Below, in pieces: positions 45,802 to 52,399 of a stretch of DNA of 64,000 nucleotides (position 1 is its first letter; each line of letters begins with the position of its first letter). The DNA lies in contig NZ_JANUCA010000001.1 in the NCBI RefSeq assembly GCF_024807145.1, forward strand, positions 496,001 to 560,000. Reading direction: 5' to 3'. Source of the stretch: Microbacterium sp. AK031. Lineage in GTDB: Bacteria > Actinomycetota > Actinomycetes > Actinomycetales > Microbacteriaceae. Made by a program: the position numbers and the translations under genes. The notes under the pieces were generated by a model. It saw only the letters and a list, made by a program, of their open reading frames with translations, was not told the origin of the DNA and searched no databases.

Positions 45802-47418
45802 TCAGTCGGGGTACGGCACCGGCCAGTGCGGCTCGGGAACGGGCCATCCTGCATCACGCAGTGCCCGGCGGGCGAGTTCGCGTGCGGAGTACGGGGTGCG
45901 GACGCCGCGGATGTCCCGGTAGTCCTGATGGCCGGGACCTGCCCAGAGGATCGCGTCGCCGTCGCCGACGAGGTCCACCGCGGCGATGATCGCCTTCTCC
46001 GGCGGCGAGTACTCATGGATCTCGGCATCCGGTCGCGCCATTCGCGCGCCCTCGATGAGCATCGCCCTGATCGACTCCGGATCCTCGAATCGGGGGTGGT
46101 GGTCGGTGATGACGAGGACGTCGCTACCCAGCACGGCTGTGCGCCCCATGTCGTGCCGCTTGGTGGCGTCGCGGTCGCCGTCGGCGCCGAACAGCATCAG
46201 CGTGCGGCCAGGCGTCACACGGCGGATCGCCGCGAGGGTCTTCTCGAAGGCGTCTGGTGAGTGGCCGAAGTCGACGAATACTGCCGGGCCCCGTTCGCCG
46301 GAGACGAGTTCGGTACGCCCCGGCAAGTAGGCGTCGATGCGGCCGTCGCGCTCGAGGGCGGCGGCGATGCGCTCCCACTCGTATCCGCCCTCGAGCAGCA
46401 TGACGATCGCGAGGGCGGCGTTCGCTGCCATGTGCGGGCCGATCACCGGAACGACGGTGGTCAGAGTGCGACCCCCGGGACCGGCCATGGTGAAGCGGGT
46501 TCCGCGCTGACGCTCTTCATCGATCGTGACCACCCAGTCGGCGCCCGCAGCGACCGACGCATCCGTGGCGATCGCGGGTGTGCCGACGGTGACGACCGGG
46601 ATCTCAGCTGCGGCGACCACATCGACGCCGGAGGCGGAATCGAGGCATATCACCGCGCGTCGAGCGCGATCGGGCTTGAACAGGGGGAGCTTCGCGGCGA
46701 AGTACTCCTCCATGTCCGCGTAGTCGTCGAGGTGGTCGTGGCTGAGGTTCGTGAAGCCGGCGACGTCGAACACGAGTCCGTCGACGCGCTTGCGCGACAG
46801 GGCCTGTGCGCTGACTTCGACAGCGACCGCTTCGACTTCGCGCTCTCGCATGAGCGCGAGGAGTGCGTGCATCTCGGATGCTTCCGGCGTGGTCAGCCGC
46901 GAGACGATGACCTCGCCGGCGATATGCCGCTCGGCAGTGGACGACAGTCCGGTGACGACGCCGAGCTGATCGAGGATGCCCTCCAGCAGATGAGAGACGC
47001 TCGTCTTGCCGTTCGTGCCGGTGGTGGCGAAGAGCAGCGGCAGGTCGTCATCGGCGCCGGTGCCGTACACCCAGGCGCTGAGCGCGCCGAGCACCCCGCG
47101 AGGGTCCTCCACGATCACGATCGGCAGCCCGATGTTGCCTGCAATGTCGGCGCCTGCCTCATCGGTGATGACGGCGACGGCGCCCTTCTCTGCGGCAGCG
47201 GCGGCGAACACCGCTCCGTGCTGGTTGACCCCCTGGATGGCGACGAATGCCTCTCCGGCGCGGAGATCGGAGGTCGCGAGGGTGATGCCGGTCAGAGTGA
47301 CATTCGCGGTGTCTCCGCGGGTGTCGGTGGCGAAAAGGGCGGCGAGATCCGTCAGATTCCGCTGTGGCGGAGCATCCGGACGGAGCACGGGAGGAAGGCT
47401 GGGCTGTGTGGTCGACAT
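45802..47418 (-). CDS. MurE-like Mur ligase with altered substrate motif
   Basis: A 538-residue ATP-dependent amide ligase. The P-loop ATTGTNGKTS is at residues 131-140. FTNLSHDHLDDYADMEEYF, IDAYLPGRTELV and VDFGHSPDAFEKTL are MurE-type. The motif that recognises diaminopimelate (DNPR in DAP-adding enzymes) reads HHPR here (ITDHHPRFEDPES, about residue 440), and the usual AHTPD is GHSPD. It probably adds a third amino acid to the muropeptide or is a specialised paralogue. The gene is not in a division/cell-wall cluster, so the canonical murE may be elsewhere. Confidence 0.85.
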   Translation of the reverse strand: MSTTQPSLPPVLRPDAPPQRNLTDLAALFATDTRGDTANVTLTGITLATSDLRAGEAFVAIQGVNQHGAVFAAAAAEKGAVAVITDEAGADIAGNIGLPIVIVEDPRGVLGALSAWVYGTGADDDLPLLFATTGTNGKTSVSHLLEGILDQLGVVTGLSSTAERHIAGEVIVSRLTTPEASEMHALLALMREREVEAVAVEVSAQALSRKRVDGLVFDVAGFTNLSHDHLDDYADMEEYFAAKLPLFKPDRARRAVICLDSASGVDVVAAAEIPVVTVGTPAIATDASVAAGADWVVTIDEERQRGTRFTMAGPGGRTLTTVVPVIGPHMAANAALAIVMLLEGGYEWERIAAALERDGRIDAYLPGRTELVSGERGPAVFVDFGHSPDAFEKTLAAIRRVTPGRTLMLFGADGDRDATKRHDMGRTAVLGSDVLVITDHHPRFEDPESIRAMLIEGARMARPDAEIHEYSPPEKAIIAAVDLVGDGDAILWAGPGHQDYRDIRGVRTPYSARELARRALRDAGWPVPEPHWPVPYPD

Positions 47419-47487: not shown

Positions 47488-48159
47488 CTACGCCGAGCGA
47501 CGGTAGGCGAGCACTGCGACCACGAGGGCTGCGATGCCGGTCAGCAGCCCGGCGCCACCGAGAACGGCGCCTGCGGGGAATGCCGCGGCCGTCGGCTCCT
47601 GCGTCTGCCCCTGGGCCTGTGAGTCCGAGTGCTCTGCATGCGCAGCATCCGTTGTGCCCTCACCGTCGGCGGTGATCGCCACGACCGGCGCCGGTGAGTC
47701 GAGGTCATGCGGGTCGGCGCCGTCCTCTGCGATCTCCACCCATTCATTGACGCCGCTCTCGCATGTCTGCTTCACGGGGAACGCCAGGGAATCCGGGGCA
47801 TCCTCGCCGAGTCGGACGGCCATACTCGCGGCTCCTCGCAAGTCCGAGGGGATCGGGGAGACGGCGGTGTAGGTGACTGCCGAGACGAGGCCGTTGTCCG
47901 CGCGCTCGACGGCGATGTCCCAGTTGCCGTCGACTGTCGGGGAGACGGATGTCAACCCTTCCGGCATCGTGACTCGCAGTGCTGTGGTCGGTGAGTCCTC
48001 GCAACCATGGGTGAACGAGAAGGTCAGCACGGCGGAGCCGCCGGGTTCGATGGCATCGGGGCTGACTCCGACGTGCGCCTGCGCTGCGGTAGGCGCGGCG
48101 AAGACGAGGCCTGCAGCGAGGGCGGCGATGAGTGCGCCGCGACGGGTGATTCGAGACAT
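47488..48159 (-). CDS. YcnI-like (DUF1775) exported copper-associated protein
   Basis: A 223-residue protein with an N-terminal signal (TRRGALIAALAAGLVFAAP, twin-Arg-like) cleaved before AHVGVSP. The mature N-terminal His followed by the DUF1775 beta-sandwich is the copper-binding arrangement of YcnI. A linker rich in His, Asp and Gln and a C-terminal membrane helix (GLLTGIAALVVAVLAY) anchor it outside. The start at 48159 has AGGAGA; an upstream ATG at 48258 is rejected. It follows a membrane-protein gene on the same strand. Confidence 0.87.
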   Translation of the reverse strand: MSRITRRGALIAALAAGLVFAAPTAAQAHVGVSPDAIEPGGSAVLTFSFTHGCEDSPTTALRVTMPEGLTSVSPTVDGNWDIAVERADNGLVSAVTYTAVSPIPSDLRGAASMAVRLGEDAPDSLAFPVKQTCESGVNEWVEIAEDGADPHDLDSPAPVVAITADGEGTTDAAHAEHSDSQAQGQTQEPTAAAFPAGAVLGGAGLLTGIAALVVAVLAYRRSA

Positions 48160-48282
48160 GAGTTCTCCTGTGTTCAGGTGCAGATCAGATTCTGCGTGCG
48201 GGCGCGCCGACGGCGCGCGGAACCGCGGGTGGTGAGCCGTGAGACGGTGTCGTTTCATACGGCAGTGAGCACGTGCGGCTTG

Positions 48283-50352: not shown

Positions 50353-52263
50353 TCAGGCGAATGCGTTGCTGATCAGGCGCTCCAGCGTGCGGATGCCGTC
50401 GCGAGACAGGATGGATTCGAGGTGCCCCTGCACCGACGCGAACGACGATCCGCGTAAGGCGTAGACATCGCCGTTCGTCGGGTCGGCTGACACTTCGGCC
50501 TCACCCGCGGTGGTCGTTCCGGGAGAGACTCGAGCGGTGAACGTGTTGTAGAACCCGATCGAGGCATCCTCTCCGAACACCGGCACGACCTTCTGCAGTC
50601 CCTGGTGCGGTGCGGCGAGAGGGGCGAGATCGATTCCGAGCTGGTCCGCCAGAATCTGGTGGCTGAGGCATACGGCGAGAAGCGGCGCGTCGCTCGCGAG
50701 GCGACGGGCGACGATCTCACGCATGCGGGCGATGCGGCCGATCGTGGCATCACGAGGATCTCCGGGGCCCGGACCTGCGACGAGCAGTTCTGCGGCATCG
50801 ACATCTGCATCGGTGACGTCGTTCCACGGCATGATCCTCGCGTCGAGCCCGAGATGGCGCAACTGGTGAGCGAGCATCGTCGTGAAGCGGTCCTCGGCGT
50901 CGATGACGAGCGCGCTTCGCCCGGCGAAGGGCCCAGCGGTGCCGTCTTCCTGCGGATTCAGCCAGAACTCGGCGAGGCGGGAATTGCGTGAAGCGAGCAG
51001 TTCGGCGACCTCGGGGTCGTCTGCGAGAGAGGTCTCGACGGCCGGAGCGTCAGGGTCGAGTTTGATCTCCGCCGCTATATCCCGGGCGATCGCGCCGATG
51101 GCGCCGAGCACACCGGCGGCCTTGCCGTGGGTCTCGCTGACCTCGCCGTAGGGATCGGAATGCCGCACGAGCGTCGCGCCGACCGGTACACGGAGCTGCC
51201 CGCCCTCGAGATACACGGTGCGGATCAGAATGGGCGCGTCGACGTCGTGGCCGCCCTCGGCGTTCGGAGCGAAGAGTGCTGCGACTCCCGAGTAGTAGCC
51301 GCGCGGTTTGGTCTCGTGGCGACGGATGACCGCGCAGGCGTTCTGCATGGGGGAGCCTGTGACAGTCGGGGCGAACATGGTCTCGCGGAGGATGTCGCGC
51401 GGGTCGAGACGGCTGCGCCCGCGCAGCATGTACTCGGTGTGGGTGAGGCGCGACATCTGTTTGAGATGCGGTCCGGTGATCCGGCCACCGTCCGAGCAGA
51501 CGGCACTCATCATCTTCAGCTCTTCATCGACCACCATGAAGAGCTCCTCGGTCTCCTTGGTCGAGGAGAGGAACTCGACCAGAGTCTCCTTGGTCGCACC
51601 GCCTGCAGGGTGGCGGAACGTGCCGGAGATCGGATTCATGGTGACGATGCCGTCGCGCGCCACGACGTGCGCCTCAGGGCTGGCGCCGACAGCGATGTGC
51701 CCTGGCGTGATGACGGCGAACGTCCAGTAGGCGCCACGTTCATGGGTGAGCAGCGCGCGGAACCAGGTGAGTGCGGCGGTGCGCTCGTCGCGCACCGGGT
51801 CGTCGGATCCGAGGTCTATGGTCGCCGTGTAGTCACGGCGGATGACGAAGTTCGCCCCTTCGCCGCGTCCGATCTCGTCGGCGATCACCCGGGTGACCAC
51901 CTGCGCGTAGTCCTCATCGCTGATGTCGAAACCGGCGTCTTTCAGCGGCACGGCATCCTGAGGCAGTGCATCCAAGACCGCGCCGAGCGGAAGGTGCTCG
52001 TGCCGGTCCACGAGAAGACAGCGCAGTGGAGCAGCGTCATCCTGTGCCTCGAAGCCCCGCTCGCGCACCTGACGATAAGGCACCATCGCGAAGACCTCGC
52101 GAGCGGCGCCGTCGACCGTGAGCGGGATGTCAGCGAGCAGGTCGACATCTTCGACATCGCCGGTGAGCAGTTCGACACTCTGCGCTCCGTCGCGGGCGAT
52201 CAGCACGAAGGATGCGTCCGGATTCCACACGAGTGCGGCGAGCAGGGCTGCGGTATCGGTCAT
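50353..52263 (-). CDS. Fused anthranilate synthase, PhzE-type (TrpE-TrpG)
   Basis: A 636-residue bifunctional enzyme. Residues about 1-420 are a chorismate-binding domain (MNPISGTFRHPAGG, ELFMVVDEELKMMS, FAPTVTGSPMQNAC, VGATLVRHSDPYGEV). Residues about 440-636 are a class I glutamine amidotransferase with nucleophile Cys in LLAVCLSHQ and His-x-Glu in QGHLESILSRDG. The details are closer to PhzE/TrpEG fusions than to separate TrpE. The ribosome site is AGGAGA. A complete trp attenuator lies directly upstream, so tryptophan supply, not phenazine, is the likely role. Confidence 0.9.
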   Translation of the reverse strand: MTDTAALLAALVWNPDASFVLIARDGAQSVELLTGDVEDVDLLADIPLTVDGAAREVFAMVPYRQVRERGFEAQDDAAPLRCLLVDRHEHLPLGAVLDALPQDAVPLKDAGFDISDEDYAQVVTRVIADEIGRGEGANFVIRRDYTATIDLGSDDPVRDERTAALTWFRALLTHERGAYWTFAVITPGHIAVGASPEAHVVARDGIVTMNPISGTFRHPAGGATKETLVEFLSSTKETEELFMVVDEELKMMSAVCSDGGRITGPHLKQMSRLTHTEYMLRGRSRLDPRDILRETMFAPTVTGSPMQNACAVIRRHETKPRGYYSGVAALFAPNAEGGHDVDAPILIRTVYLEGGQLRVPVGATLVRHSDPYGEVSETHGKAAGVLGAIGAIARDIAAEIKLDPDAPAVETSLADDPEVAELLASRNSRLAEFWLNPQEDGTAGPFAGRSALVIDAEDRFTTMLAHQLRHLGLDARIMPWNDVTDADVDAAELLVAGPGPGDPRDATIGRIARMREIVARRLASDAPLLAVCLSHQILADQLGIDLAPLAAPHQGLQKVVPVFGEDASIGFYNTFTARVSPGTTTAGEAEVSADPTNGDVYALRGSSFASVQGHLESILSRDGIRTLERLISNAFA

Positions 52264-52300
52264 CGAGGTCTCCTGTGCAGGGCTCCGGCTCGGCTCAACG

Positions 52301-52324
52301 AAAAGACCGCCCCGGAGGCGGTCT
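52301..52324 (-). terminator. trp attenuator terminator (segments 3:4)
   Basis: On the minus strand AGACCGCC pairs with GGCGGTCT around a five-base loop and is followed by TTTT, an intrinsic terminator 38 bases before the anthranilate synthase ATG. Its 5' arm (CCGCCT) can instead pair with AGGCGG of the upstream hairpin, giving an antiterminator. Confidence 0.88.
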
Positions 52325-52347
52325 GGATTCGTGGGATCGCGAACACA

Positions 52348-52362
52348 CCGCCTAAGAGGCGG
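52348..52362 (-). promoter_or_regulatory. trp leader hairpin (segments 1:2)
   Basis: CCGCCT and AGGCGG (6 bp, three-base loop) overlap the last codons and stop of the leader peptide. A ribosome stalled at the two Trp codons would cover segment 1 and free segment 2 (AGGCGG) to pair with CCGCCT of the terminator, allowing read-through. Confidence 0.82.
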
Positions 52363-52387
52363 GCCACCAGGTGAAGTTCGCGAGCAT
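52352..52387 (-). CDS. trpL: trp leader peptide, MLANFTWWPAS
   Basis: An 11-codon open frame with tandem Trp codons (MLANFTWWPAS, stop TAG), too short for normal gene calling. It is immediately followed by mutually exclusive hairpins and an intrinsic terminator before the anthranilate synthase gene, the standard arrangement for transcription attenuation by charged tRNA-Trp. TAGTTT (52399-52394) is six bases before its ATG, so the leader itself is translated from the first base of the mRNA. Such leaders are known in Streptomyces and Corynebacterium trp genes. Confidence 0.9.
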   Translation of the reverse strand: MLANFTWWPAS

Positions 52388-52393
52388 GGGCCG

Positions 52394-52399
52394 AAACTA
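52394..52399 (-). promoter_or_regulatory. -10 box of the trp leader transcript
   Basis: TAGTTT on the minus strand ends six bases before the leader-peptide ATG at 52387. No clear -35 is seen. Confidence 0.6.

Follow-up and report, generated by a model that had tools for sequence, protein, structure and literature searches.

The closest described relatives of the locus studied here come from Streptomyces. The leader trpL1 (MFAHSTRNWWWTAHPAAH) of S. lividans TK24 is reported, from RNA-seq, to start a leaderless transcript ahead of a monocistronic trpE (PMC8079986). TrpEG of S. venezuelae closely resembles PhzE and, according to the title of Ashenafi 2008, is an anthranilate synthase and not an ADIC synthase (PMC3111181), while reference entries to Lin 1998 assign a trp attenuator to the S. 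venezuelae anthranilate synthase gene (PMC4833913, PMC1262725). The passages of Seliverstov 2005 on trp report such attenuators for Corynebacterium and Streptomyces only; Leifsonia xyli, a member of the family to which our organism belongs, was surveyed too, and these passages name no trp attenuator for it (PMC1262725). TrpEG genes with a trp attenuator are a known, little-studied group, best known from Streptomyces.

We analysed a window of 64,000 nucleotides, the whole stretch of DNA under study, from Microbacterium sp. AK031. The window contains a gene for a fused, PhzE-like chain with a chorismate-binding and a glutamine amidotransferase domain, for which S. venezuelae TrpEG, as described in the sources above, is the closest precedent. 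We take the gene of the 1998 attenuator work to be this same S. venezuelae trpEG. Like S. lividans trpL1-trpE as reported, the window combines a putatively leaderless Trp leader, two hairpins, a U-rich stretch and a monocistronic gene, the S. lividans leader being supported by RNA-seq (PMC8079986) and the window element by sequence comparison. With the trp operon attenuators described for Corynebacterium and Streptomyces it shares tandem UGG codons, a segment common to antiterminator and terminator, and a GC-rich terminator (PMC1262725). Leaders in Streptomyces exceed that of the window in length: they have three Trp codons followed by about 10 residues, compared with WW and three residues in the window; the leaders of two Streptomyces-like loci in our set (L109, L110) resemble S. 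lividans trpL1. It is highly likely that the window element is a ribosome-mediated trp transcription attenuator on a leaderless mRNA, controlling a one-gene transcript for an anthranilate synthase of the S. venezuelae TrpEG type.

The element can be read directly from the letters of the minus strand, where a preceding sequence-only reading had placed a trp attenuator (Table 1). As that reading had claimed, an 11-codon leader with tandem Trp codons is present, and no SD-like sequence lies upstream of it. The 6-nt gap between TAGTTT and the ATG means that +1 would fall on or beside the A of the leader start codon. The 1:2 hairpin, given earlier as 52348-52362, was found with the pairing CCGCC to GGCGG, and its stem is in fact two-part and longer, with an additional outer 7-bp helix that joins the leader's first codons to 52344-52338. 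The terminator, described earlier as having four Us, does have four in a row if the last stem base is counted. Terminator and antiterminator exclude each other as had been proposed: positions 52322-52317 take part in both, and the 7-bp antiterminator takes the 5' arm of the terminator.

Table 1 Parts of the candidate attenuator and of the gene downstream, in window coordinates
Feature	Position	Strand	Details
Candidate -10 box TAGTTT	52394..52399	-	6 nt (52393-52388) before leader ATG
Leader ORF MLANFTWWPAS*	52352..52387	-	ATG 52387-52385
Tandem Trp codons of leader ORF	52369-52364	-	
Leader stop codon	52354-52352	-	
Segment 1, outer arm CGCGAAC	52376..52382	-	Pairs with GUUCGCG 52344-52338, 7-bp helix
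Segment 1, inner arm CCGCC	52358..52362	-	Just 3' of Trp codons; pairs with GGCGG 52352-52348
Segment 2	52338..52353	-	(A)GGCGGU 52353-52347 and GUUCGCG 52344-52338
Segment 3, AGACCGCC(U)	52316..52324	-	52322-52316 is the antiterminator arm
Antiterminator	52353-52347 with 52322-52316	-	AGGCGGU with ACCGCCU, 7 bp
Intrinsic terminator	52301..52324	-	8-bp stem, AGACCGCC 52324-52317 with GGCGGUCU 52311-52304, and short U run, UUU to 52301
Shine-Dalgarno AGGAG of structural gene	52270..52274	-	6 nt upstream of gene ATG
PhzE-type fused anthranilate synthase, putative trpEG	50353..52263	-	636 aa; Pfam, 3r74 match

The arrangement suggests how the leader would work, very probably switching the PhzE-type gene on when tryptophan is scarce. 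RNA polymerase would start at or beside the leader ATG, and a ribosome would load on the 5' end. With ample charged tRNA-Trp the ribosome would reach the stop codon and cover segment 2, the 3:4 terminator would form, and transcription would stop near 52301. When charged tRNA-Trp is scarce the ribosome would stall on the Trp codons and cover segment 1, including the CCGCC arm, leaving most of segment 2 free to pair with segment 3, so that polymerase would read through into the gene. If the leader is not translated at all, the long 1:2 stem would form and the terminator would win. Our comparisons support these parts of the reading: the presence of all four segments, pairing that is mutually exclusive, conservation in actinobacteria, and a genome in which we found no other trpE-type gene.

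To characterize the element itself, we compared its folding with that of shuffled sequences. The whole leader folds at -37.7 kcal/mol (z -2.7), a value reached by 0 of 200 shuffles; the terminator (z -3.4) and the antiterminator (z -3.6) are equalled in 1/200 and 0/200 shuffles, respectively, and the 1:2 piece (z -2.5) in 4/200. A pattern scan detects the terminator (1 found against 0.1 expected). The scan rule for sigma-70-type promoters, which requires a -35 element too, gave none ahead of the leader, and no -35 was found. At gathering thresholds, Rfam reports only a tRNA, and no trp leader, in the whole window. Our own attenuator model R1, built from 23 leaders among which is that of the window, gives one strong match in the 3.4-Mb genome, the window site (E 1e-18). 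The next best match (E 0.02), a tRNA-like sequence followed by a hairpin, was discarded as an attenuator. Against a chance origin of the element, the strongest argument is its conservation in relatives, described below.

We then considered the gene that the leader precedes. Its 636-aa protein shows PF00425 (chorismate-binding) and PF00117 (glutamine amidotransferase) only, and Anth_synt_I_N (PF04715) is not among the Pfam matches listed. The best solved relative is Burkholderia PhzE (3r74, E 2e-149), which matches it in two-domain architecture along almost the whole chain. The protein scores 88.5 bits against TIGR00564, the canonical TrpE equivalog, whose cut-off is 517.7, and none of the 25 NCBIfam equivalogs listed reaches its cut-off. 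Nearest named relatives are from Microbacterium (M. aerolatum, 84%). The sequence-only reading had expected such a sequence to be often annotated as phenazine biosynthesis; this was not borne out, as 17 of the 20 plasmid-borne relatives listed are called 'anthranilate synthase family protein'.

The resemblance to PhzE nevertheless raises the improbable alternative that the window gene is a stray phenazine or other secondary-metabolism gene whose protein makes ADIC, with a leader that is incidental or borrowed. Besides the solved relative, this draws on the existence of unattenuated PhzE-type copies, some of them beside PhzF or isochorismatase-family genes on plasmids; in the Rhodococcus plasmid matches H2-H6 a PhzF family gene directly adjoins the PhzE-type gene, a plausible phenazine-type contrast. 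The window gene is flanked instead by ispG (GcpE), which is divergent, and by a site-2 protease (M50/PDZ), which is convergent, so that it stands alone on its strand; there are no phz genes beside it and hence no phenazine-gene context. A search for PhzA/PhzB found no match in the genome, and none in 14 controls either. Elsewhere in the window, 47488-48258 on the minus strand encodes a DUF1775 protein with a signal-like start, with a Mur ligase nearby at 45802-47418.

Sequence residues were dropped as a discriminator between anthranilate and ADIC synthases, as just two conservative columns differed between them in our comparison. This agrees with the statements on PhzE in PMC5958127, by which the enzyme makes ADIC and its sequence gives no reason why it stops there. 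That the window enzyme makes anthranilate rather than ADIC is our inference, drawn from the pathway and the enzyme reported for S. venezuelae.

The pathway argument rests on the rest of the genome. A search for another trpE, proposed with the sequence-only reading, found no canonical TrpE. Three genes carry PF00425: the window gene, a PabB-like gene that barely passes the pabB cut-off (329.0 against 328.4), and a third that scores above the isochorismate synthase cut-off. Both trpD (PF00591) and trpA are present, and a phenazine role for the window gene would leave the genome without an anthranilate synthase in spite of them. The genome's own operon runs hisF-hisI-trpTM-trpC-trpB-trpA, with an empty trpE slot, compared with hisF-hisI-trpE-trpTM-trpC-trpB-trpA in the relative G118 (in our operon hisF, hisI, trpC and trpB were recognised by eye and trpTM by PF09534; in relatives trpC was recognised by PF00218). 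With tblastn, the slot is empty in 10/10 genomes that have the PhzE-type gene only (9/9 and G558) and filled in 6/6 genomes with canonical trpE (G118 and five others); the former make up 10 of the 21 family members with a PhzE-type gene and no canonical TrpE. The window gene thus appears to be this Microbacterium's only enzyme starting tryptophan synthesis. The earlier proposal that it feeds tryptophan is well supported by the conserved attenuator, the lack of a canonical trpE among the genes found, the empty his-trp slot and the presence of trpD and trpA.

The position of the protein among its relatives was assessed in a tree of 108 rows, a quick tree without bootstrap and with some long branches, on protein sequences taken by alignment-guided extraction. 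A branch with SH-aLRT 95 separates all 75 attenuated rows, together with 12 unattenuated ones, from PhzE 3r74 and 20 unattenuated rows. The window copy groups with the attenuated copies, away from PhzE, and shares its clade with the attenuated Streptomyces-like copies. Together with the neighbours and the missing canonical trpE, this argues against the phenazine reading. Two copies, L023 (G148) and L029 (G053), were left out of the tree: each has an intact leader and an in-frame TAG or split match in the PhzE-type copy, and as their genomes also have canonical trpE, they may be decaying duplicates.

At class level, a PhzE-type gene occurs in 147/394 genomes, and the contrast sets show what the leader can and cannot indicate. 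In Streptomyces-like genomes (f26, named from the leader peptide), 13/13 examined have one attenuated copy; seven second copies were fetched, all without a leader, and each of these is placed either on a long branch or apart from the main clade of attenuated copies. The genomes examined retain canonical trpE beside the attenuated copy, whereas none was found in the window genome. The leader also occurring with canonical trpE, its presence by itself is no proof that a gene is the main supplier. In family f24 there is no leader at 13/13 loci in 10 genomes, and these genomes (10/10), like the unattenuated f34 genomes, have no canonical trpE at E < 1e-100. We had considered as a general rule that leader-less copies belong to secondary metabolism, and rejected it on account of these two families; as the PhzE-type genes of some families come without a leader in genomes that also lack canonical trpE, leader absence proves nothing.

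Conservation of the leader was examined at 109 PhzE-type loci, comprising 24 Microbacteriaceae copies and the upstream DNA of 85 further class-level loci (60 class-level loci were chosen by hand for spread and are non-random). Of the 109, 77 have a WW leader preceded at 6-8 nt by TANNNT, compared with a box at that spacing ahead of 3/479 control short-ORF starts in the same regions. None of the 77 leaders counted, which by definition all have the box, has an SD-like motif. Within the family, the leader is found in 23/24 copies, the exception (L025) being in a 1.4-Mb genome. Among named relatives, 80 loci were listed, 78 had sufficient upstream DNA and 74 of these have the leader; the four without are from Serinicoccus and Ornithinimicrobium. 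As a control, we took the 30 best-scoring canonical trpE loci, and a leader of this kind occurs in 0/30 (29 are sound; L058 lies near a contig end and its offset is wrong). In 114/151 leaders the peptide ends exactly three residues after the last Trp; this set holds a few loci under two names (e.g. L009/L289, L011/L290, L028/L320), and the spacing fits the ribosome-position geometry proposed above. A -10/ATG spacing that is conserved through the genus, its family and a number of further actinobacterial families supports the earlier suggestion that the leader peptide is leaderless by position. The range of the leaderless trp attenuator, known from Streptomyces, extends to Microbacterium, Plantibacter, Agromyces, Humibacter, Jiangella, Micromonospora and other named genera.

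Individual loci depart from this pattern. L145 (upstream of L205, G516) has the leader VIARMSSWRPATVAAHFFRA, in which the frame is kept and W-R replaces WW; the sister copy L186 retains WW. L025 (G027), L131, L133 and L141 are without an attenuator; in these, only a few bases separate a TANNNT-like box from the structural ATG, which looks as though loss of the attenuator had left the gene itself leaderless.

The RNA structure is conserved as well. In 20 distinct family leaders, 96.9% of cells of the inner 1:2 hairpin and terminator are paired, and the covariation score of these helices is equalled by 0/500 shuffles; changes on both sides occur at 2/13 pairs, a number matched by 22/500 shuffles. 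In the outer helix, which was tested by swapping segments between leaders, segments 1 and 2 change together: among 28 dissimilar leaders, out of 83 with a perfect terminator, the duplex of a leader's own segments reaches -16.1 kcal/mol against -13.2 (sd 0.5) for permuted segments, with 0/5000 permutations as low. For the antiterminator we found no covariation in relatives: 80% of its cells are paired, with the inner pairs holding and the two outermost pairs failing in most cases, and 340/500 shuffles do as well; this is expected for bases tied by two partners, yet it is no positive evidence for the helix.

These data also bear on how the leader acts. It is unlikely, to about the same degree as the phenazine reading, that the leader works chiefly through translation or Rho, by access to the start site or to rut, with little intrinsic termination. 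Such a mode of action would suit the short U run and the broken or imperfect terminators of some relatives. By a strict rule, the perfect hairpin with a T-rich tail is missing in 26/109 distinct short-type leaders, many of which fail just through a long loop or few Ts. The terminator pairs are, however, the best kept part of the element (97.5% of cells paired in 20 distinct family relatives), and the AGGAG of the structural gene lies about 27 nt past the terminator end. In L020 (G003), leader and segment 2 are retained and the terminator has decayed; this genome also has canonical trpE.

Least probable of all is a further action in trans of the short terminated RNA or of the 11-aa peptide, as is reported for rnTrpL and peTrpL of Sinorhizobium (PMC7298713): outside WW and the stem-encoded residues the peptide is free to vary, as expected if the RNA and the Trp codons alone matter.

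Finally, we assessed the relevance of the element in the context of the family. A full PhzE-type gene is present in 24/199 family genomes, and canonical TrpE, called at TIGR00564 E < 1e-100, is missing in 11 of these 24; among the remaining 175 genomes it is missing in 11, several of which are incomplete (Fisher p 2e-6, kinship ignored). In the genus of the window, canonical TrpE is missing in 12/12 genomes examined. All three states occur among the six genomes examined of genus g80: canonical trpE only (G194, G405), both genes (G079, G142, G481) and the PhzE-type gene only (G558). Searches of open-licence PMC papers turned up neither a trp attenuator described in Microbacterium nor an account of trpE displacement by a PhzE-type gene.

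Our evolutionary reading is tentative, and somewhat less likely than not in our own estimate: in Microbacteriaceae, an attenuated, monocistronic PhzE-type TrpEG would first have stood beside canonical trpE and then have replaced it several times, with a shift in control. The N-terminal domain of canonical TrpE carries the tryptophan feedback site. If this reading is true, loss of trpE from the his-trp operon would have moved control of the committed step from allostery, together with the operon, to a single remote attenuator, and TrpEG, being without the feedback-site domain, would have changed feedback control. The three states within genus g80 make the order of displacement events testable, and the genus is a natural experiment on the replacement of a regulated primary enzyme.

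To a specialist, a trp attenuator on trpEG would be no surprise, though its presence on the apparently sole anthranilate synthase of a Microbacterium might be, and loss of the operon trpE with all three stages in one genus may be unexpected; the proposed repeated displacement of canonical trpE is the newer aspect of the finding. The attenuator can guide annotation in practice: a PhzE-type gene that carries it should not be labelled phenazine biosynthesis. Within the limits of sequence evidence, the PhzE-looking gene of this Microbacterium belongs to tryptophan synthesis.
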